From a virus: 26,404 nt of DNA. The notes beneath the pieces are model-generated. The model saw nothing but the letters and a program-made list of their open reading frames with translations. It had not been told where the DNA came from and ran no database searches. The stretch's first letter is position 1. The number at the start of each line of letters is the position of its first letter. A program made the translations under genes and the position numbers. Of this stretch, positions 4,614 to 22,418 are shown one piece after another. The stretch is from IMG/VR virus record IMGVR_UViG_3300007616_000008, positions 1 through 26,404 of that record. One strand, given 5' to 3'.

Positions 4614-4643
4614 CTTTCTCAACTAAACAATATAGCGGTACAC

Positions 4644-4666
4644 ATATATATCTGTTGAAACCAATA
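4644..4666 (-). promoter_or_regulatory. Boxed promoter (TATA plus 15-bp upstream box)
   Basis: Minus-strand ATATATAT (4644-4651) is preceded by the upstream box, which reads CTGTTGAAACCAATA on the plus strand (4652-4666). It drives the gene starting at 4613 and is one of nine close copies in the window. Confidence 0.7.
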
Positions 4667-4670
4667 CTCC

Positions 4671-4681
4671 AAAAAAGAAAA
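4671..4681 (-). terminator. Poly-T terminator after the 161-aa gene
   Basis: The minus strand reads TTTTCTTTTTT just 8 nt past the TAG at 4690. Archaeal transcription commonly ends in such T tracts. It abuts the next promoter box. Confidence 0.6.
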
Positions 4682-6326: not shown

Positions 6327-6490
6327 TAGTTAACCTCTCCTGCATCAACAATCTCAGGCTCACTTCGCGGACCTAAGACCAACGTCTCGTTCCATGCGCG
6401 CATTTCGACAACCTCACGGTCTTCGCCTTCGTAGCTCACTTGGTCACCGCATTTGATACCGTATTTCTCTCGCATCTCGATTACGTTCAT
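6326..6490 (-). CDS. Small hypothetical protein, 54 aa
   Basis: From ATG 6490 to TAA 6326 the frame reads MNVIEMREKYGIKCGDQVSY... and ends in VDAGEVN. GAGGAGG lies 8 nt before the ATG, one of the strongest ribosome sites in the window. A boxed promoter lies 40 nt upstream. The K-x-GDxVxYEGEDREVVEM pattern suggests a small SH3-like barrel. It is the first gene of a seven-gene operon of small proteins. Confidence 0.8.
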   Translation of the reverse strand: MNVIEMREKYGIKCGDQVSYEGEDREVVEMRAWNETLVLGPRSEPEIVDAGEVN

Positions 6491-6529
6491 TCTAACTTCC
6501 TCCTCAACTAAACTATGCAGGGGCAGACG

Positions 6530-6551
6530 TATATATCTATCGAAATCTATA
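6530..6551 (-). promoter_or_regulatory. Boxed promoter
   Basis: Minus-strand ATATATA (6530-6536) is preceded by the box (plus-strand CTATCGAAATCTATA, 6537-6551). It drives the operon starting at 6490 with a leader of roughly 16 nt that holds GAGGAGG. A CTGTTTTC tract upstream (6551-6558) probably ends the previous transcript. Confidence 0.75.
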
Positions 6552-7912: not shown

Positions 7913-8233
7913 TTAAAGAAGTCCGAATAGCTTCAACAATCCCCACGCAAATGTAACTAGTAACATCAGTCCAAATACAACTAACAGACAATCAGCTGAC
8001 GATTTGTTAGCATCATGAACATAACGGTCTGGCGTAGCTAACACATCGTCATCTCGATACCTACAATTTTTACAGAGTCCGTAGCTCTCTTCAGTCCTTC
8101 CGTCATACATCGGACGATATTGGAACCTTTCACATCGCGGACACTCATTATACGGATACCTCTCAACGATGTAGGGCGGATAGTCGGGCCGAACCCTATG
8201 AACTCCTCTCCATTCGTAATCTGTAATGCTCAT
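7913..8233 (-). CDS. Zinc-ribbon protein with C-terminal membrane anchor, 106 aa
   Basis: CPRC (about 31-34) and CKNC (about 54-57) form a zinc ribbon. Residues about 82-106 (DCLLVVFGLMLLVTFAWGLL...) form one transmembrane span at the C-terminus. The N-terminal part is rich in Tyr, Pro and Arg. It starts as TAATG with the RFC large-subunit stop, so it is the last gene of that operon. Function unknown; probably membrane-bound with the ribbon in the cytoplasm. Confidence 0.8.
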   Translation of the reverse strand: MSITDYEWRGVHRVRPDYPPYIVERYPYNECPRCERFQYRPMYDGRTEESYGLCKNCRYRDDDVLATPDRYVHDANKSSADCLLVVFGLMLLVTFAWGLLKLFGLL

Positions 8234-9453
8234 TACCAGTCGAACACTGACGTCTCCTCAATCTTCTCGCCAGACTCAGTTGCCCACTCCTCATGCTGGT
8301 CTGGGTCTAAGTCGAGCGCCTTCTTAGCTGAATCAGATAGGTCATGCTCAATTGCCATCTGACGTCGCTCCTCAAGTCCGAGGTCAAGCAGTATATCTAG
8401 ATAAACGTGACGGAACTCGTGAAAGTCGCACGTTATTCCAGGACGTCCATCTTCGCCTGCTAACTCTCGAAACAGTGCCGCTTTGTTACTGGACTCTGAA
8501 GTAGCACTTGGCGCACGCACATAGTTTGGAGAGCCATACCGCACATACCCATCGTAAGGCTCTGTCAGCCGAACCTCGGCGATTTGTTTCTGAAGCTGGG
8601 CAGCATAGGCCCAGTACCGATAATCCTCTGTACGGGCCCGTTGCAACCATTTATCCGCCCGTGCCAGCAGGTCCCAGACTACTTGAGCCTCCCAACCATT
8701 GTACTGGCCACGCATACCACTTGTGAGCCATCGCTGAAGGTCATCGGGCGTCATGTCCGTCTGGCCATCGACACCTTTGCCAGTCCTTAAGTCATCGAGA
8801 ACCTCAAAAGGACTTCCTCCGTACTGACGAGCATCCTCAGGGACTTCTTTGCTATCGCCCATCGACTGAAGGTCATGGATAGCGTCCCGGAGATTCTCTC
8901 GCTCTGAAAGCTCCCCGAGCGTAGCCATGTCTAGCTCCAACTCTTCAGCAGCGTTAATCTTCTTCAGCTTCGCCATCCGGCTAGATTTACCTAACTTGAA
9001 GTCGTGGTTGTTGGCGAGCTTTTTGATTCCTCGCGGAACCTCATAATCGTCATTGCAAACGATGAGAATAGGATTCGGCGGGTCATCAAGGACGTCTTTG
9101 AGCGGATTCAAGTTCGTCGAACCCGGAATTGAGTCAGCCTCGTCCAGAAGGATAAGCTGATGCTCGGCGTCGATAGGCTTTAGCTTCATTCGTTCAGCCA
9201 TCTTCTGAATCTCGTCAGTCCGTCGAGCATCACTGGCGTTAATTTCTTCCACCGGTAAATCAAAATCATTTGCTAATGCTTGTGCTGTTGATGTTTTACC
9301 GACACCTGGCGGACCTGAGAGCATTTGGGGCATATCTCCTTTAGAAAAATTACTTAACCAATTTTCTAAAATTTTGAGAGCTTTATTGTTACCTTGAATT
9401 TCATCGACAGTGGTCGGTCTATACTTGTCAACTAATGGTTCTTCTTCGTTCAT
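8233..9453 (-). CDS. rfcL: Replication factor C large subunit (clamp loader)
   Basis: This AAA+ ATPase works with RfcS to load PCNA. The 406-residue protein opens with EPLVDKYRPTTVDEIQGN (RFC box II), then Walker A GPPGVGKTS (47-55), INASDARR, and Walker B LILLDEADS. It is shorter than typical haloarchaeal RfcL. The C-terminus ends TSVFDW, a PCNA-binding-like tail also seen on PolB. Roughly the first 71 codons (9240-9453) are AT-rich (36% G+C in 9301-9400) while the rest is normal (53% in 8761-8860). An orphan GC-richer start of the same gene lies at 10263-10295, beyond the inserted endonuclease. The ATG overlaps that endonuclease's stop as ATGA. Confidence 0.92.
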   Translation of the reverse strand: MNEEEPLVDKYRPTTVDEIQGNNKALKILENWLSNFSKGDMPQMLSGPPGVGKTSTAQALANDFDLPVEEINASDARRTDEIQKMAERMKLKPIDAEHQLILLDEADSIPGSTNLNPLKDVLDDPPNPILIVCNDDYEVPRGIKKLANNHDFKLGKSSRMAKLKKINAAEELELDMATLGELSERENLRDAIHDLQSMGDSKEVPEDARQYGGSPFEVLDDLRTGKGVDGQTDMTPDDLQRWLTSGMRGQYNGWEAQVVWDLLARADKWLQRARTEDYRYWAYAAQLQKQIAEVRLTEPYDGYVRYGSPNYVRAPSATSESSNKAALFRELAGEDGRPGITCDFHEFRHVYLDILLDLGLEERRQMAIEHDLSDSAKKALDLDPDQHEEWATESGEKIEETSVFDW

Positions 9454-10118
9454 GCTATTACTTCCTTACCTTTATTTATCGCTTTGTTAGCTATAGCCTT
9501 CTGTTCTTCTGCCGTTAACTGTTCAATCCGTATTCGGTTCTCGATATAAGAGTGACAAGAACGACATAAAGACATCAAATTTTGGAGCTTATTCGCCTCT
9601 TCGTAATTGTTAAAATCTCTAAAAGCAACTATATGATGAACAACTTCAGCTTCGTTGTTACATACACAACATAAATACTCGTCACGTTCTAATGACTTTT
9701 TTCGTTGTTCATCCCAATTAACTCCTCTCGATTTAGGATTTGGTCCAGGAATCCAATTAGGATTATCCTCGCCTTTCATTCGTTCGGAGTGTGCAGGACG
9801 AGATTGTCCATAAAACGGATGGTTCTGTCCTGACATACGCTCAGAGTGAGTTTGCCTCCATTCATCTGAAACCTTTCTTCCTGTCGAATTGTGTTCAACA
9901 GTACCAACTGCTTCAGATTTCCAAGCACCTAAGCAGTTCTTATCGCAAAATGACTTACCATTAGTATGCTTTTTCTCTTCTTTAATCACAGTGGCTTCAC
10001 AGTTATGGCATTCAGTTTCGTACCCTCGTAACGACTTACCATGTGCGCGAGCGTGATGACGACGCATATCGCCAATAGACTCAAAACTGTCGTTACAGGT
10101 TGGACAATTAGTTGTCAT
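9450..10118 (-). CDS. HNH homing-type endonuclease with zinc finger and NUMOD3-like repeats
   Basis: The 222-residue protein is modular. A C2H2 finger (C5, C8, H21, H26) is followed by a second Cys pair region (CHNC, FCDKNC). NUMOD3-like DNA-binding segments come next (GQNHPFYGQ, GEDNPNW). The HNH domain follows, with C150/C153, H161-H162, N180 and C185/C188-H189. It is AT-rich (31% G+C in 9601-9700), unlike the replication genes. GGAG lies before the ATG at 10118. It lies between thymidylate kinase and rfcL and appears to have been inserted at codon 11/12 of the original rfcL. Confidence 0.9.
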   Translation of the reverse strand: MTTNCPTCNDSFESIGDMRRHHARAHGKSLRGYETECHNCEATVIKEEKKHTNGKSFCDKNCLGAWKSEAVGTVEHNSTGRKVSDEWRQTHSERMSGQNHPFYGQSRPAHSERMKGEDNPNWIPGPNPKSRGVNWDEQRKKSLERDEYLCCVCNNEAEVVHHIVAFRDFNNYEEANKLQNLMSLCRSCHSYIENRIRIEQLTAEEQKAIANKAINKGKEVIA

Positions 10119-10221
10119 CTCTCTCCTTCAGTAACTCCTTCCACGTCAGTTCGTGTTCGTCTTTGTAGCCGGACAATTCGTCGTATTCGTCGTCTGAAAG
10201 TGTGATATTCAGATGCTTCAC
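10108..10221 (-). CDS. Small RHH-like protein preceding the HNH gene, 37 aa
   Basis: From a GTG at 10221 the frame reads KHLNITLSDDEYDELSGYKDE after the start residue and ends in ELLKERDDN. A strand (HLNITLSDDEYDEL) followed by helices resembles half of a ribbon-helix-helix protein. There is no ATG start in frame and no clear ribosome site, so the start is uncertain. It overlaps the HNH start by 11 nt. It may repress the endonuclease, by analogy with the small gene before the other HNH gene. It could also be the broken end of a longer gene. Confidence 0.5.
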   Translation of the reverse strand: MKHLNITLSDDEYDELSGYKDEHELTWKELLKERDDN

Positions 10222-10262
10222 ATCACTAAGTAAGTAACCAACTAACTTAGTTCCATCGAAGG

Positions 10263-10295
10263 ATACTTGTCGACCATCGGCTCGTGTTCACTCAT
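10263..10295 (-). pseudogene. Orphan N-terminal fragment of rfcL
   Basis: From ATG 10295 the frame encodes MSEHEPMVDKY. Eight of its 11 residues match the present RfcL start MNEEEPLVDKY. The nucleotides GACAAGTAT are identical at both places (plus-strand ATACTTGTC at 10263-10271 and 9421-9429). After Tyr11 the match stops and the frame ends at a TAG (10242). It overlaps the thymidylate kinase stop by 8 nt, as a normal next gene in the operon would. I read it as the original rfcL start, cut off by the endonuclease cassette. Confidence 0.75.
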
Positions 10296-14912: not shown

Positions 14913-15406
14913 CCGGTAGTGATTCCTTTTTTGACGTGCCCGCACTCATTACACTCCCAACGCGGCGCACTGGTAGCGGAGTTCTTTCGCTTCTTACCGA
15001 GCGATTCCCAATCGTCAGCACCACATTCCGAGCAACCACCCTCGCACTCCTCGCAAATCGTGGCAACGTAACTTCCGGTCTTCGTAACCAGCTTGCCTGC
15101 TGGAACACACTTCTCGCACTTCTCGCACGCCGACAGCCCGTTTTCTAAGAGCATCTCGCTCATGACACCCTTGACGTATTTTTCATCGGGCTCGTCCGGA
15201 ATTTTCTCCTCTGGCAGCTTGATTAGCTCTTCGTCGCACCACTTCGTCAGCTTATCAGCCTGTCGCCAGCGCCCGTACTTCTTGTCGTCTTTGTCCGGGA
15301 TAATGTGGACGTACCATCCCGAGCCGACGGAGTAACTATCCACATTAACGCTCTTAATGATGATGCCCTGTTCGCGGTCAACAACTGGTAGTTCGAGTTC
15401 GCTCAT
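14909..15406 (-). CDS. Cysteine-rich zinc-ribbon protein, 165 aa
   Basis: The C-terminal half has many paired cysteines (CEKCEKC, ICEECEGGCSECG, WECNECG), enough for two or three zinc ribbons. The last ribbon resembles transposon-type or TFIIS-like ends. The N-terminal half (ELPVVDREQGIIIKSVNVDS, GWYVHIIPDKDD) is strand-rich and unrecognised. GAGGAGG lies 8 nt before ATG 15406 with a boxed promoter upstream. A nucleic-acid-binding role is likely. Confidence 0.8.
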   Translation of the reverse strand: MSELELPVVDREQGIIIKSVNVDSYSVGSGWYVHIIPDKDDKKYGRWRQADKLTKWCDEELIKLPEEKIPDEPDEKYVKGVMSEMLLENGLSACEKCEKCVPAGKLVTKTGSYVATICEECEGGCSECGADDWESLGKKRKNSATSAPRWECNECGHVKKGITTG

Positions 15407-15444
15407 TCTTACTTCCTCCTCAACTAAACTATACAGTGGTATGC

Positions 15445-15467
15445 ATATAAACCTGTTGATATCAATA
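15445..15467 (-). promoter_or_regulatory. Boxed promoter
   Basis: Minus-strand TTTATAT (15445-15451) is preceded by the box (plus-strand CTGTTGATATCAATA, 15453-15467) containing the palindrome TTGATATCAA. It drives the gene starting at 15406 with a GAGGAGG leader. Confidence 0.75.
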
Positions 15468-15480
15468 CTTCAAAACTGCT

Positions 15481-16010: not shown

Positions 16011-16391
16011 TCAGCTGGCAGGCCACCGCCTAACATCTCGTGGCCCGTCACAATGATAGCCCTTACTGGACTCTCCGTTCTTGCATCGCCCGTCTTTCTT
16101 CCACTCAACACTGTAGTCCTTCTGCATCATCGTCTGCTTCAGACGACGCGCTTGGTTTCGCAGCGTCATATTGTTTGCTCGGTACTCGTACGAGATTTCG
16201 ACTCCTGCTGGCTGTTTGCCCGAGCCATCGTGGAGGACCACGTCGACAGCGTAAGTGGACACATCAGATGACTTCGCATCTTCGAGGACGTATGCAGCAT
16301 AGTCGTCTTCAGGCGGCTCTGGGTCGTATGATTCGTTAATCGAACTCTTACTGTCCTTCTCTGCGTCGATGATTTGCGTGGATGCACTCAT
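16011..16391 (-). CDS. Hypothetical protein, 126 aa
   Basis: It has a disordered acidic N-terminus of about 45 residues, a strand region (STYAVDVVLHDGSG, GVEISYEYRANN), then a basic helix (TLRNQARRLKQTMMQ) and a Cys-containing tail (GRCKNG, YHCDGP). The family is not recognised. GAGGAAC lies before ATG 16391 and a boxed promoter lies upstream. Confidence 0.75.
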   Translation of the reverse strand: MSASTQIIDAEKDSKSSINESYDPEPPEDDYAAYVLEDAKSSDVSTYAVDVVLHDGSGKQPAGVEISYEYRANNMTLRNQARRLKQTMMQKDYSVEWKKDGRCKNGESSKGYHCDGPRDVRRWPAS

Positions 16392-16429
16392 TCTAAGTTC
16401 CTCCTCAAGTAAACAAAACAGTGGTACAC

Positions 16430-16452
16430 ATATATATCTGTTGATATCAATA
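16430..16452 (-). promoter_or_regulatory. Boxed promoter
   Basis: Minus-strand ATATATAT (16430-16437) is preceded by the box (plus-strand CTGTTGATATCAATA, 16438-16452), identical to the one at 15453-15467. T runs just upstream (minus-strand TTTTCCGTTTTT, about 16457-16468) may terminate the preceding unit. Confidence 0.75.
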
Positions 16453-16480
16453 CTACAAAAACGGAAAATGAGCTACTAAC

Positions 16481-16540
16481 TCAGAACTCAGCGCGACGTC
16501 GCCGGAAGGAATCGAAGCTCACACCACCAGCACCATTAGA
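16481..16540 (-). pseudogene. Orphan C-terminal fragment of the Cas4/RecB-like nuclease gene
   Basis: The minus strand encodes SNGAGGVSFDSFRRRRAEF followed by TGA, starting one base past the stop of the endonuclease gene. The intact nuclease at 17376-18197 ends SANGAGGIDYTGYKRRRAKF. Eleven of 19 aligned residues are identical and several others are conservative. There is no start codon, so it cannot be expressed alone. Upstream of both copies the nucleotides TTGTAGT are identical (plus-strand ACTACAA at 16541-16547 and 17442-17448). I read it as the original gene end, displaced by the endonuclease insertion. Confidence 0.8.
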
Positions 16541-16541
16541 A

Positions 16542-17285
16542 CTACAAGTCCTCGATAGCTTTAGCACGTTTGTCCCAATCGTAATGGGCATCAGAAGGAA
16601 GTTTTGCTCCGATAACAACATATCTCCAATCAGATTCTAAAACCGTTTTAGCTTTACTAATAGCATCCTCATCGACCCAATATTCGCCTTTCAACTCAAT
16701 AATTATTTGATGATTTGGTAATACAAAATCCGGGTAATACTTTCGGCCATCATCATACTCAAACGTTACACCTTCATACTGATATTCAATCTCAGAATCT
16801 TGTAAGAGCCTACCAAATTTACGCTCCCAATCTGACCGCGTAAAATGACCTAATTTATCATCAAACATCCACTTAGCTTCAGGCGGCTCTCGACCTTTCA
16901 AAGATTCGCTAATCTTCTGTTTAGTTTCATTGGATAGCTCTCGTGTAGTACCGAACATCGGATTTAACTTTCCACTATTATCCCGAAGTTTACCCATCTC
17001 CGAAGCGTGTTTCCTAACTTTTTCTGCTCCAGCAGCTCCGATATTCTCCTCTAAACTTCTTCCAGTTCGTCGTTTAGACTGAGCTTTGTTATAACACTCT
17101 CTTTGACAGTACCAATTATCACCGAAAATTTCTAATTGGCTCTCGTACTCTTTTTCAACTGTTCCGCACCACTCACATTTAACTTCAACAAGTGCTAACG
17201 ACTCATTATGAATTTGAGCATGATGATTTTTCATCCCATTCTCCGTAGCACAACCTTTCCCGCAGGTAGGACATGAAACTGACAT
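16542..17285 (-). CDS. Homing-type endonuclease: zinc finger, NUMOD3-like, PD-(D/E)XK
   Basis: The 247-residue protein has a C2H2 finger (C5, C8, H21 or H22, H26), a further Cys-rich knuckle (CEWCG, WYCQREC), and a NUMOD3-like stretch (GKLNPMFG, LSNETKQKISESLKG). A VSR/EDxHD-like nuclease core follows: W153-E154, YPDF with D186, and IELKG with E197 and K199. The start is ATG 17285; a TTG at 17300 is less likely. The gene is AT-rich relative to its neighbours. Its stop TTG-TAG is formed from host-gene sequence at the insertion point (16541-16547). Confidence 0.87.
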   Translation of the reverse strand: MSVSCPTCGKGCATENGMKNHHAQIHNESLALVEVKCEWCGTVEKEYESQLEIFGDNWYCQRECYNKAQSKRRTGRSLEENIGAAGAEKVRKHASEMGKLRDNSGKLNPMFGTTRELSNETKQKISESLKGREPPEAKWMFDDKLGHFTRSDWERKFGRLLQDSEIEYQYEGVTFEYDDGRKYYPDFVLPNHQIIIELKGEYWVDEDAISKAKTVLESDWRYVVIGAKLPSDAHYDWDKRAKAIEDL

Positions 17286-17286
17286 T

Positions 17287-17354
17287 TTGTCTGCGCCCAA
17301 AAGAATATACTTACGGAACTAATAAAATCGTTTGGGCGGGATTGTCTGCGCCCA
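17287..17354 (-). repeat. Pair of 13-bp direct repeats around the endonuclease promoter
   Basis: TTGTCTGCGCCCA occurs at 17287-17299 and again at 17342-17354 (plus strand), 55 bp apart. The first ends 2 bases before the endonuclease ATG. AT-rich TATA-like sequence lies between them (17301-17327). The distal copy also pairs with TGGGCG at 17333-17338, giving a 6-bp stem just past the nuclease stop. This could be an operator pair, a terminator, or a duplication scar. Confidence 0.45.
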
Positions 17355-17375
17355 CAGATTTTCCGCCTATCTTAC

Positions 17376-18197
17376 TCAGAACTTAGCTCGTCTTCGTTTG
17401 TAGCCTGTATAATCTATACCGCCGGCTCCATTTGCAGAAGCACTACAATATCCTTGATAATCGCACCAGTAGCACTTACTCTCCTCTGGGTCTGGGTCGA
17501 ACTGGTCACGCTGAATGTCTTGGCACAGACTCTTAGCGTGCCGTATCATCTCGTTCCAGTTCTCGTCATTCGGCTCCAGTCCCCGGACCTTACCTTCTTT
17601 GAGGTACACGAACCGAATCTTTTCTGGAGGCTCCCCATACAGCTTTTGATAGCCTTTCATATAGACGGAACCTTGGACAATCTCGGCTTCTTCGCGGACA
17701 CTGCCAGTTTTCCAGTCCCAAATCTCCCCGTTCTCTGTGATACAGTCGATGTATCCGAGGAACTTGGCTTTGATGTCAGGCCGTCCGAGCGTAAACTCGA
17801 ACTTAGGTTCGAGCGCGCGAATAGCACACTCCGGCCTCATTTCAGCTACATACTTGGAACAGGTCTCCAAGCAATTGATACCGCGGTCCCAGAGTTCATC
17901 TTCGACTTGTGGGTTCCATTCCCGAAACTCTTTCACCAAGTCCTGGCGTAGCTGATTCTGCGGACGTGGGTGAGACTGCCAACGGTCTCGTCCAAGCACG
18001 TTCTCGATTGACTCGTGAACTGCTGAACCGAGCTCGAGGTATCCTTTGCCTTCCTTAGTGCCATCAAGGCCATGAATCTTGTAATACTTGAACTGAGCCG
18101 GACAGTTTTTGTGTGTCTTTACTGAGCTGGCTGACAATCTGAAGATTGAATCAGATTCGTCTTCTAGCTCTTTCTCGTCTTCCCATGCGTAACTCAT
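17376..18197 (-). CDS. Cas4/RecB-like PD-(D/E)XK exonuclease with Fe-S cysteines
   Basis: The 273-residue protein has the PDDEXK_1 plan: SASSVKTHKNCPAQFKYY with C32, LELGSAVHESI (active-site His), GYIDCI with D151, WDWKTG with D161 and K163, and Q175-x3-Y179. C242, C245 and C251 near the end join C32 as a likely Fe-S cluster set. It probably processes DNA ends in recombination with RadA or the Sak4-like ATPase. The last 20 or so codons are AT-richer than the body and differ from the GC-richer orphan end at 16481-16540, so this tail seems to have come with the endonuclease. The ATG overlaps the preceding stop as ATGA. Confidence 0.9.
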   Translation of the reverse strand: MSYAWEDEKELEDESDSIFRLSASSVKTHKNCPAQFKYYKIHGLDGTKEGKGYLELGSAVHESIENVLGRDRWQSHPRPQNQLRQDLVKEFREWNPQVEDELWDRGINCLETCSKYVAEMRPECAIRALEPKFEFTLGRPDIKAKFLGYIDCITENGEIWDWKTGSVREEAEIVQGSVYMKGYQKLYGEPPEKIRFVYLKEGKVRGLEPNDENWNEMIRHAKSLCQDIQRDQFDPDPEESKCYWCDYQGYCSASANGAGGIDYTGYKRRRAKF

Positions 18198-18585: not shown

Positions 18586-19593
18586 TTAAATCTCCGGCTC
18601 GTCGGAAGCCTCTCGATATGGGTCCAGTGAGACGTGCCGTGCCATTCTGATGTCTGTGACGAGCGCGCGGAGCTGAGTTCCGGGATTACTCCCATGAAGG
18701 ATACGCCACTCACAGTCAGCTATCTTATCAACCAACAAAGACTGACTATCAGCAGGAAGGTCATCACGTTCGAGGACCACGTCCATCAGCTCATCGCAAA
18801 GAGCCGCGGCGTCGATACCATCTCGAAGCATAGTGTCGATGAGTTCCATAGCTTCTTCCTGATTCTCATTGACTGCTTCGTCGACGAGCGTCCGTACATC
18901 GTCTTTGTCAATCAGACTCACGACCGCTTCGATGAACTCGTCTACCACAACACCATCAGAAGACGCCGACTGTAGCGTGTGGATAGCTTTGCGAGCGTCA
19001 CCTTCAGACTGGTCTACGATAGTCCCGAGCTGCTCAGCTTCATATTCCAGTTCTTCCTGCTCCGCAACATCAGTCAGAAGCTCCATGATTTGGTCCTCGT
19101 CGAGCGGACTCATCTGAAGTGGCGCACACCGAGACTGGATGGGGTCGATGAGCTTGTTGGGGTAGTTGCAAATCAGGAAGAAGCGCGTTCGGTCGCTGAA
19201 ATCTTCCATGATACGGCGCATGGCAGGCTGAGCGTCGCGCGTCATGTTGTCGACCTCGTCGAGGAGGATGATGTTATAGTCGTGTTCGCCCATAACACCA
19301 CCTTGGCTCGCGAAGTTCTTAATCTGGTCACGCACCACGTCGATACCACGCTCGTCCGAAGCGTTAAGCTGCATCATGTGATTCGCCCACTGGTCGCCGT
19401 ACTTGTCCTTAGCGAAGGCGACTGCTGATGCAGTCTTACCCGTGCCCTGCGGCCCCCAGAACAGAACGTTCGGCATCGCAGGGTCATCTGTCCAGGACTT
19501 GAGACGTTCTACCTCAGCCTCGTTGCCCATCACTTGGTCTAACGAATTCGGTCTGTAGCGCTCCACCCACACGGTATCCTCAACTGTTGTCAT
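18586..19593 (-). CDS. rfcS: Replication factor C small subunit
   Basis: RfcS forms most of the clamp-loader ring that opens PCNA. The 335-residue protein begins with the RFC box WVERYRPNSLDQVMGN. It has Walker A GPQGTGKTA (47-55), LNASDERG, Walker B ILLDEVDN (about 109-116), and the arginine-finger SRC motif (IQSRCAPLQ, 154-156), followed by the helical collar domain. All catalytic residues are present. The ATG at 19593 overlaps the endonuclease gene by 14 nt; GGAG lies 9-12 nt upstream. Codon use is ordinary to the first codon, unlike rfcL. Confidence 0.96.
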   Translation of the reverse strand: MTTVEDTVWVERYRPNSLDQVMGNEAEVERLKSWTDDPAMPNVLFWGPQGTGKTASAVAFAKDKYGDQWANHMMQLNASDERGIDVVRDQIKNFASQGGVMGEHDYNIILLDEVDNMTRDAQPAMRRIMEDFSDRTRFFLICNYPNKLIDPIQSRCAPLQMSPLDEDQIMELLTDVAEQEELEYEAEQLGTIVDQSEGDARKAIHTLQSASSDGVVVDEFIEAVVSLIDKDDVRTLVDEAVNENQEEAMELIDTMLRDGIDAAALCDELMDVVLERDDLPADSQSLLVDKIADCEWRILHGSNPGTQLRALVTDIRMARHVSLDPYREASDEPEI

Positions 19594-20149
19594 AATTTAT
19601 CTCTCCGTTTAGTCCAGTAACTTCCTCTGGGTACTGGTCCCAGTAGTTCGATATTCTATCAGCTCGCTTGTGATGAGTATCGCACAATACTACCAGATTC
19701 TTCGTCTGGTTAACTTTCGAGAAGTCCATAAACGGATGAAAGTAAACGAATCTTCGCGGAGTAACATGATGCACATTATTAGCATCGACTCCGCAAACAG
19801 CACAACTTTCATCATCGCGCTCTAGGACTATATGTCGTTGAATATGCCAATGTGGCCCTGTAGGGATTCCGCGTCCACCTTTCCATGCATAATGGTCAGA
19901 GCCAGAAGCAGGTCCAACTTTCCGTCTTTGTTCTAGTGTTAATTTAGTTCCTGTTTTAGGATGGTCTTCTCCTGTTTGACCGTAATGAGGATTATTTTCA
20001 CCAGCCGAATGGTCTTCGGGTAAGCCGCTCTTAACCTGCTCATGCCACTCATCGCTATTGCTCTGAAACTCTCCACGACAGGAGTATGAACAGAACTTTT
20101 TGTTAGTATGGGTTTCCATACAACTTTCGAGTTGACAAGTTTGGCTCAT
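19580..20149 (-). CDS. HNH homing-type endonuclease
   Basis: The 189-residue protein has an N-terminal Cys knuckle (TCQLESC, KFCSYSC), NUMOD3-like segments (GENNPHYGQTGEDHPKTG), and an HNH domain. The HNH residues are C116/C119, H127-H128, N151, C156 and H159-H160. It lacks the classical C2H2 finger of the other three endonucleases. It lies between the primase and rfcS, starts as TAATG with a small RHH-like gene, and ends 14 nt inside rfcS. No orphan rfcS end was found beside it. Confidence 0.88.
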   Translation of the reverse strand: MSQTCQLESCMETHTNKKFCSYSCRGEFQSNSDEWHEQVKSGLPEDHSAGENNPHYGQTGEDHPKTGTKLTLEQRRKVGPASGSDHYAWKGGRGIPTGPHWHIQRHIVLERDDESCAVCGVDANNVHHVTPRRFVYFHPFMDFSKVNQTKNLVVLCDTHHKRADRISNYWDQYPEEVTGLNGEINYDNS

Positions 20150-20268
20150 TAGTCTCGATTCTCGATTAGTTCATCCAGTTCGTCTCGTACAAACGAAGAC
20201 AAGTTCAAGTGGTTGTCGTCTATCCACTCATCTTGGTCTTCGCGGATGGTAATTGTCTTTTGCTCCAC
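20149..20268 (-). CDS. Small RHH-like protein preceding the HNH gene, 39 aa
   Basis: From GTG 20268 the frame reads EQKTITIREDQDEWIDDNHL after the start residue and ends SSFVRDELDELIENRD. A strand followed by two helices matches the short ribbon-helix-helix DNA-binding plan common in haloarchaea. GTG is the first usable start after an in-frame TAA. A TATA element about 30 nt upstream allows a leaderless transcript. The stop forms TAATG with the HNH gene. It may repress its own promoter and the endonuclease. Confidence 0.75.
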   Translation of the reverse strand: MEQKTITIREDQDEWIDDNHLNLSSFVRDELDELIENRD

Positions 20269-21470: not shown

Positions 21471-22403
21471 CTACTCCAAGACGCTTTTAAGCGTTTCGTG
21501 ACAGTTACTTACTTCGTCTATGCTACTACAACTGATGTGTTTATCTGATGGCATTCTCGGTCCGTTTCCTTGAATTACGATGTACTCGTACTCGTTATAC
21601 TCCTCACAGAACTGTTCTGCCTTCGTAACGCATTTCTCCCGAGCCCAACCTTTGACCTCGATGACCTTATCTCCGACAATGAAGTCAGGCCAATAATCTC
21701 CGACTGGAAGACTGAAAGATTGAGGCTCGTATTCGTAGTCGATGCCGAGTTCGTGGAGTATGAGGTCAACTTCAACTTCCCAACCGGACCTTACTTCGTG
21801 GCCAGTCTCTTCGACCTCAATAGTCTGGGGAACAGGCGGTGACCGGTCTTCATAGTCTCCGCGTTCGTATGCCTCTTTGACAGACTCCGAGATTTTATCG
21901 CCCCATGTTACTTCACGACCTTCGTTAATCTCTCGGAGTTTCTCTCTCGTCTCCTCGCTATGAGTCTGACCCTTCATCGGACCGTCATGTTCTTCGTAAT
22001 ACTGCTTCAGACCGTCGGAGACTTTATCTATCCAATTAATGTCACGGCCTTGTAGCGTCTCCGAACGTGCCTTATCAGCACACTTATCAGAACACGTCCA
22101 GTTGTACTCTTTAGCATACCATTGACTCACTTCACCTTCGGTACCGCACACAATACACTCGACTTCGATTTGCGTCAATGACTCATCATGAGATTGGACG
22201 TGGTGCTGTTTAACAGCGTTCTCGGAGACGAACATCCGTTCGCAGGATGGGCATGGGACATCAACCTCGCGAGCGTCAGCTATACAACTGATTGACTCTC
22301 CGTGGGTCTTAGCGTGATGGGTCCTCATACCTTCCTGGCTTTTGTACTCGGTATCGCACGTCGGGCAAACAATTCCGCAGTTTGAGCAACTACACTCCGG
22401 CAT
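21471..22403 (-). CDS. Homing-type endonuclease with two zinc fingers and PD-(D/E)XK core
   Basis: The 310-residue protein has a C-rich start (CSCSNCG), two C2H2 fingers (C13/C16 with H29-H34; C51/C54 with H67-H72), another knuckle (CIVCG, WTCSDKC), and NUMOD3-like helices (HSEETREKLREINEG). A VSR-like nuclease core follows, with W208-E209, WPDF with D240, and EVKGW with E249 and K251. I start it at ATG 22403; a TTG at 22409 is possible. Base composition is close to its neighbours, so it may be an older arrival. It lies between PCNA and the primase, and no orphan gene end was found beside it. Confidence 0.87.
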   Translation of the reverse strand: MPECSCSNCGIVCPTCDTEYKSQEGMRTHHAKTHGESISCIADAREVDVPCPSCERMFVSENAVKQHHVQSHDESLTQIEVECIVCGTEGEVSQWYAKEYNWTCSDKCADKARSETLQGRDINWIDKVSDGLKQYYEEHDGPMKGQTHSEETREKLREINEGREVTWGDKISESVKEAYERGDYEDRSPPVPQTIEVEETGHEVRSGWEVEVDLILHELGIDYEYEPQSFSLPVGDYWPDFIVGDKVIEVKGWAREKCVTKAEQFCEEYNEYEYIVIQGNGPRMPSDKHISCSSIDEVSNCHETLKSVLE

Positions 22404-22418
22404 ACTCAAACTAACAGC

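Follow-up and report, generated by a model that had tools for sequence, protein, structure and literature searches.

In the window, by which we mean the whole 26,404-nucleotide stretch of viral DNA analysed here, a Cas4-like nuclease gene has very probably been entered by a homing endonuclease cassette that supplies a substitute gene end and has left the native end stranded as an orphan. The element, at 17447-16542, would be a free-standing cassette composed of the substitute 3' end and an endonuclease gene. Reading the minus strand from 17447 to 16481, we found the end of the Cas4/RecB-like gene, a 75-nt spacer, the endonuclease gene, and an orphan copy of the last 21 codons (Table 1). The Cas4-like gene, which shows 31-35% identity to the Cas4-like genes of HCTV-1, HCTV-5 and HVTV-1, ends in ...GYC SASANGAGGIDYTGYKRRRAKF and a stop codon. 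In a frame other than that of the endonuclease, TGT AGT TCT AAT ... TTC TGA encodes CSSNGAGGVSFDSFRRRRAEF and a second stop. The heptamer TTGTAGT is identical at both junctions, and its TAG is the endonuclease stop codon, exactly as the original prediction described. The endonuclease reading frame opens with TTG at 17300, while the ATG at 17285 is more likely to be its start.

Table 1. Features of the Cas4 and rfcL loci in the window
Feature	Position	Strand	Support or remark
Cas4/RecB-like PD-(D/E)XK nuclease gene, split by the insertion, with its end supplied by the putative cassette	17376..18197	-	PDDEXK_1 8.5e-25
Attached (substitute) tail, codon C251 to stop	17376..17447	-	GC 45% vs 50% in gene body
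TTGTAGT, identical heptamer around C251 in the attached tail	17442..17448	-	
Free-standing homing endonuclease: zinc finger, NUMOD3, PD-(D/E)XK (endonuclease I-like)	16542..17300	-	
TTGTAGT junction heptamer at the orphan, source of the endonuclease stop codon	16541..16547	-	
Orphan tail CSSNGAGGVSFDSFRRRRAEF and stop, presumably the original 3' end of the Cas4-like gene	16481..16546	-	L008/L009 comparison
Orphan 5' end of rfcL (MSEHEPMVDKY), mirror case	10263..10295	-	
HNH homing endonuclease of the rfcL cassette	9450..10118	-	NUMOD3 2.6e-5, HNH 9e-4, zinc finger
rfcL gene with attached start (MNEEEPLVDKYRPTT)	8233..9453	-	

The resemblance between the two Cas4 tails far exceeds chance, with a best local score of 70 against a mean of 28.0 +/- 3.6 and a maximum of 48 in 3000 shuffles (p ~2e-7), and the layout recurs in a second assembly of this virus (L006/L047, 99.9% identical); the junctions of the window and of L009, the related contig discussed below, are from metagenomic assemblies. 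The orphan copy noted beyond the endonuclease is real, but "duplicated" is not quite the word for it: the 3' end was substituted, and the original was left behind. The orphan is also GC-richer than the attached copy, as had been claimed (54% versus 45%), with 50% in the Cas4 body and 40% in the endonuclease, which is the step expected if the orphan is native and the attached tail came in with the endonuclease. Against phages, a megablast with the window gave no matches; a scan of genome contigs gave remote bacterial nucleases only, and a search for Cas4-endonuclease pairs returned none beyond the two known viruses. Directly after the orphan tail, at about 16390-16460, lies an AT-rich intergenic repeat of 65-74 bp containing AGATATATATG, with at least three further copies (80-86% identical), near 15402-15475, 4618-4681 and 6487-6551; it is possibly a shared promoter or leader.

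The window endonuclease combines a nuclease domain with a homing-type DNA-binding module. Its N-terminus carries a zinc-finger module (CxxC/HH) common to many endonucleases of these viruses, followed by a NUMOD3 match above the cut-off (1.1e-5). The PD-(D/E)XK domain is related to T7 endonuclease I, with a Pfam Phage_endo_I match of 3.3e-5 that falls under the family cut-off and a PDB profile match to endonuclease I at 1.7e-5, and its SxWE, PDF and ExKG motifs align with those of three related endonucleases. Foldseek with the endonuclease model (mean pLDDT 67) returned no matches at E<=0.001; the weak PD-(D/E)XK matches include T7 endonuclease I and Vsr. One full-length relative (30.5%), HVTV-1 gp37 (L126 17488-18213), is annotated as replication factor C small subunit, a misannotation judging from its homology and from the RefSeq copies, which say endonuclease. 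Elsewhere, endonucleases with the same double zinc-finger N-terminus lie between PCNA and primase (window 21471-22409 and L104 11069-11752), with a PD-(D/E)XK nuclease domain in the window and an HNH domain in L009; here the nuclease part appears to have been exchanged, with the DNA-reading part and the site retained.

Scans of viral contigs yielded two closer relatives, L009 (Cas4 64% identical) and L008 (67%), and the Cas4 site is polymorphic among them, occupied in the window and L009 and empty in L008. In L009, an attached tail is followed by a truncated relative of the endonuclease (61% over 83 aa) and an orphan, ...WDSFKGRRAKF and stop, whose upstream part is lost and whose 3' neighbor is the gene that directly follows Cas4 in L008; the L009 element is the same cassette as that of the window in a decayed form. 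The blastn alignment of L009 with L008 runs without gaps through Cas4 until 17 codons remain, is interrupted there, and picks up again in the L009 orphan, so the uninterrupted gene continues into the orphan and not into the attached tail. For the window, the orphan agrees with L008 at 31/51 nt and the attached tail at 25/51, a difference that is not significant alone, and the attached tails of the window and L009 show no particular similarity to each other (26/51 nt), which gives no sign of the unit having passed between these two viruses. It had been stated that an uninterrupted relative with a tail like the attached copy would count against this reading. The tail of the closer L008 leans towards the orphan; the distant, uninterrupted L010 (45%) does have a tail like the attached one, GGIDYIKF, which indicates that the Cas4 tail is variable. 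In the isolates, HCTV-5 has an intact HNH endonuclease directly 3' of Cas4, and HCTV-1, HCTV-16 and HVTV-1 retain only the C-terminal part of that enzyme (intact gene and remnants at L001 6753-7364, L002 6753-7049 and L003 6766-7062), which would represent an independent use of the Cas4 3' side followed by endonuclease decay.

The clearest cases come from cultured viruses. Over the replication region that we compared, HCTV-1 and HCTV-16 share about 97.8% identity, and the HNH gene gp70 of HCTV-1 starts with 20 queE codons, in frame, of which 59/60 nt equal the uninterrupted queE of HCTV-16. This native queE start is stranded upstream of the HNH gene, while the functional queE lies downstream and differs from that of HCTV-16 in 13 of the 19 codons 2-20, 10 of them synonymously, compared with 16 changes in the next 225 codons (p 1e-9). 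The rewritten stretch matches the stranded one in extent, and over the first nine codons the orphan matches the uninterrupted relative at 27/27 nt and the attached copy at 18/27. At the 3' end of HCTV-16 rfcL, a rewritten attached tail (26/36 nt relative to HCTV-1) is followed by a spacer of about 62 nt and an orphan tail identical to HCTV-1 (36/36), with no endonuclease between them; the site is a cassette scar that has lost its endonuclease.

The terL gene shows the transfer itself. HCTV-16 (Hacavirus) and HVTV-1 (Tredecimvirus) have a terL endonuclease (99%) in common, and with it the same rewritten terL start of ~120 nt (90-100%); past this start, HCTV-16 terL is 98% identical to that of HCTV-1 and 77-89% to that of HVTV-1. 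Since the endonuclease and the rewritten start are common to the two genera and the rest of the gene is not, the endonuclease and the gene end have moved as one block at terL, where the predicted ability of the mobile gene to carry the end of its target gene is seen directly. HCTV-5 has an unrelated endonuclease (34%) at its terL site, and a different terL start. In both the queE and terL cassettes, the start codon of the working gene sits in an ATGA overlap, preceded by GAGGTG within the last endonuclease codons, a motif to which we infer a ribosome-binding role.

Further metagenomic loci repeat this arrangement. The predicted mirror case in the window is present, with the orphan rfcL start MSEHEPMVDKY (10295-10263) facing the attached MNEEEPLVDKY that begins at 9453 (p ~2e-4); the available relative does not decide between these ends (12/30 versus 13/30). 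The L009 primase ends in GGQCSWNGRSE, and its orphan GGQASW is fused in frame to a PD-(D/E)XK gene; compared with the native GGQSSW of L008, the orphan matches at 17/18 nt and the attached end at 11/18. Similarly, L009 rfcS ends in ISLNPYREESDHPEV and its orphan VSLDPYREDTEEHPNL is fused in frame to an HNH gene, with 24/27 nt of the orphan and 16/27 of the attached end matching the native L008 end, VSLNPYREDSDRAQL; all six of these ends are closed by a stop. In L064, the first eight rfcS codons, MNVDDKIW, run on in frame into the gene of a LAGLIDADG enzyme (the motif can be seen by eye; the Pfam match, 0.024, is weak), and the working rfcS again begins with MNVDDKIW, using five synonymous codon changes; the comparison with an uninterrupted relative is marginal (orphan 18/24, attached 16/24). 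The other two endonucleases of the window (19580-20149 and 21471-22409) have no adjoining orphan that we could find. Small ORFs lie directly before HNH endonucleases at L104 14874-14990 (VAPB_antitox/RHH match) and in the window at 20149-20268 (RHH-like by eye) and 10108-10266 (no clear match). In L117 (8001-11609) and L118 (8001-11822), the PolB matches spread over 3.6-3.8 kb and not the usual ~2.7 kb, which suggests an intein or other insertion.

Altogether, orphan ends across an endonuclease were found for Cas4 and rfcL in the window, Cas4, primase and rfcS in L009, queE in HCTV-1, rfcL in HCTV-16 (the scar) and rfcS in L064. Uninterrupted relatives group with the native end and not with the inserted one, clearly at primase, rfcS 3', rfcL 3' and queE and weakly at both Cas4 loci and rfcS 5'. 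The expectation that uninterrupted relatives resemble the orphan is hence supported at the former four, weakly so at the Cas4 loci and marginally at rfcS 5'. The proposed entry of a cassette with a substitute tail also proved to be a recurrent design: in related haloviruses it affects several genes, at 3' as well as 5' ends, and involves nucleases of the PD-(D/E)XK, HNH and LAGLIDADG families. Some candidates from the census of duplicated gene ends were false leads, namely the PIP-box-like endings common to rfcL and other genes in L115 and L118, HhH repeats in L057, zinc-finger repeats, and a primase "tail" match in the window that falls inside an HNH gene.

How well does exchange by ordinary mosaic recombination account for these data? 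According to this explanation, intergenic endonucleases were exchanged with divergent relatives by homologous recombination, and the diverged gene end is a co-converted flank with no role in rescue or resistance. When 158 gene ends were ranked by excess divergence between HCTV-1 and HCTV-16, the top 11 included five of the eight that abut an endonuclease found in only one of the two viruses (p 3e-5, an indicative value, as the eight were hand-listed from annotation after the ranking had been seen). End divergence is enriched beside endonucleases and is not exclusive to them: the remaining diverged ends are beside a methyltransferase gene or reflect annotation differences, and the polB 3' end is not among the diverged ends though it abuts an endonuclease. 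The methyltransferase, a C5-cytosine enzyme of HCTV-16 (L122 24105-25235), lies between rtcB and mazG and is absent from HCTV-1; both gene ends beside it are strongly diverged, and no endonuclease is there now. This favors mosaic recombination, as do the rewritten ends without orphans at acetyltransferase, terL and queE 3'. However, flank exchange leaves no second native gene end on the far side, such as the orphans at the loci listed above; nor does it foresee that the codons rewritten in queE are the very ones that were stranded. We therefore consider mosaic recombination unlikely.

The insertions interrupt coding sequence, and the orphan retains both its reading frame and its stop, as would be the case if the attached tail and endonuclease formed an intron or similar spliced element and the functional protein used the orphan end. 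But the attached ends are complete and their protein sequence is conserved (of the 13 changed codons in queE, 10 are synonymous, and so are all five in L064 rfcS), as one would expect only of translated sequence; moreover, the window contains no Rfam intron at gathering threshold, and the upstream part of the L009 Cas4 orphan is gone. A spliced element is thus very improbable, and we rejected it. Two copies flanking an endonuclease would also arise from a tandem duplication of the gene end within one virus, with the endonuclease inserted between the copies later. Such copies should be equally close to an uninterrupted relative, yet the orphans of queE and rfcL are near-identical to it and the attached ends strongly diverged, and at terL the endonuclease and the rewritten end travel jointly between genera; we rejected this origin too, as an extremely improbable one.

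The substitute-end cassette suggests the following course of events. It would have entered the Cas4-like reading frame at codon C251 or immediately before it, where the gene body became joined to the cassette's tail so that a complete protein could still be made; the original viral tail, stranded downstream, would now also form the far flank of the insertion. The likeliest trigger is a cut by the endonuclease in a conserved part of the coding sequence close to the gene end; repair would then copy the cassette, whose differently spelled end would restore the reading frame and remove the cut site. The occupied allele is expected to escape further cutting because its end is spelled differently, and the gene would survive because the peptide encoded by that end hardly changes. 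Where a 5' end is affected, the endonuclease can take over the native start codon (queE, L064 rfcS); where a 3' end is, it can end by reading into the orphan (L009 primase and rfcS) or at an orphan-made stop (window). The architecture, the native identity of several orphan ends and the block transfer at terL are seen in the sequences themselves; that the enzyme cuts, where exactly it cuts, that rewriting confers immunity and that the orphan acts as a homology arm are what we infer from the arrangement. The rewritten spelling may have been selected for resistance or inherited from a divergent donor, and both can be true. More tentatively, it is possible, although we would stop short of favoring it, that these cassettes are a natural and recurrent counterpart of home-and-rescue designs, in which three unrelated nuclease families target conserved coding sequence near gene ends and persist via a short rewritten, cut-resistant end, with the orphan as the far homology arm and the rewriting kept by selection and not merely inherited from the donor.

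Phage homing genes are thought to be intergenic, or to break a gene unless an intron or intein rescues it; a short rewritten gene end would be a third, splicing-free way of living inside an essential gene. Such cassettes would explain the abrupt end divergence of replication, packaging and queuosine genes in haloviruses, and gene ends adjoining endonucleases, whose history differs from that of the gene remainder, are unfit for trees. HCTV-1 and HCTV-16 were both isolated on Haloarcula californiae, making homing with gene-end rescue testable in culture. Integrases that rebuild tRNA gene ends are likewise mobile elements that restore the end of the gene they enter. The analogy is functional only, since they act by site-specific recombination and their ends are identical rather than rewritten.

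Like the T4 intronless homing genes, the halovirus genes are free-standing homing genes beside essential replication genes, with co-conversion of flanks (PMC2988022). However, T4 SegF, SegG and MobE lie between genes and cut hundreds to thousands of bp away, and the coding-sequence insertions at Aeh1 nrdA and T4 gene 60 are described as gene-splitting, with no substitute end (PMC2988022), whereas the halovirus cassettes appear to enter coding sequence and bring one. We found no earlier report of gene-end-carrying homing genes in viruses in the open-licence literature. In the synthetic, CRISPR-based HomeR drive of Drosophila, a cassette with a re-coded 3' end (22 or 27 aa) and flanking homology is placed at the cut site in an essential gene (PMC7968924); the halovirus cassettes share the re-coded end and the position at a predicted cut site, but they are natural, and their rewriting may or may not have been selected. 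The closest parallel is found in the mobile ORFs of fungal mitochondria, where in Glomus atp6, atp9, cox2 and nad3 the C-terminus is replaced and the native end left downstream (PMC3630166), with Allomyces atp6 cited there as an earlier case. In these, too, the endonuclease ORF brings a substitute 3' end, the native end can stay downstream, and the native end groups with relatives while the inserted end does not (PMC3630166). The halovirus cases differ in belonging to DNA viruses of archaea and not to mitochondria, in carrying 5' ends as well, in using HNH, PD-(D/E)XK and LAGLIDADG nucleases, and in pieces of 6 to ~45 codons. Substitute gene ends were thus already known from fungal mitochondria, and the halovirus cassettes would extend them to viruses.
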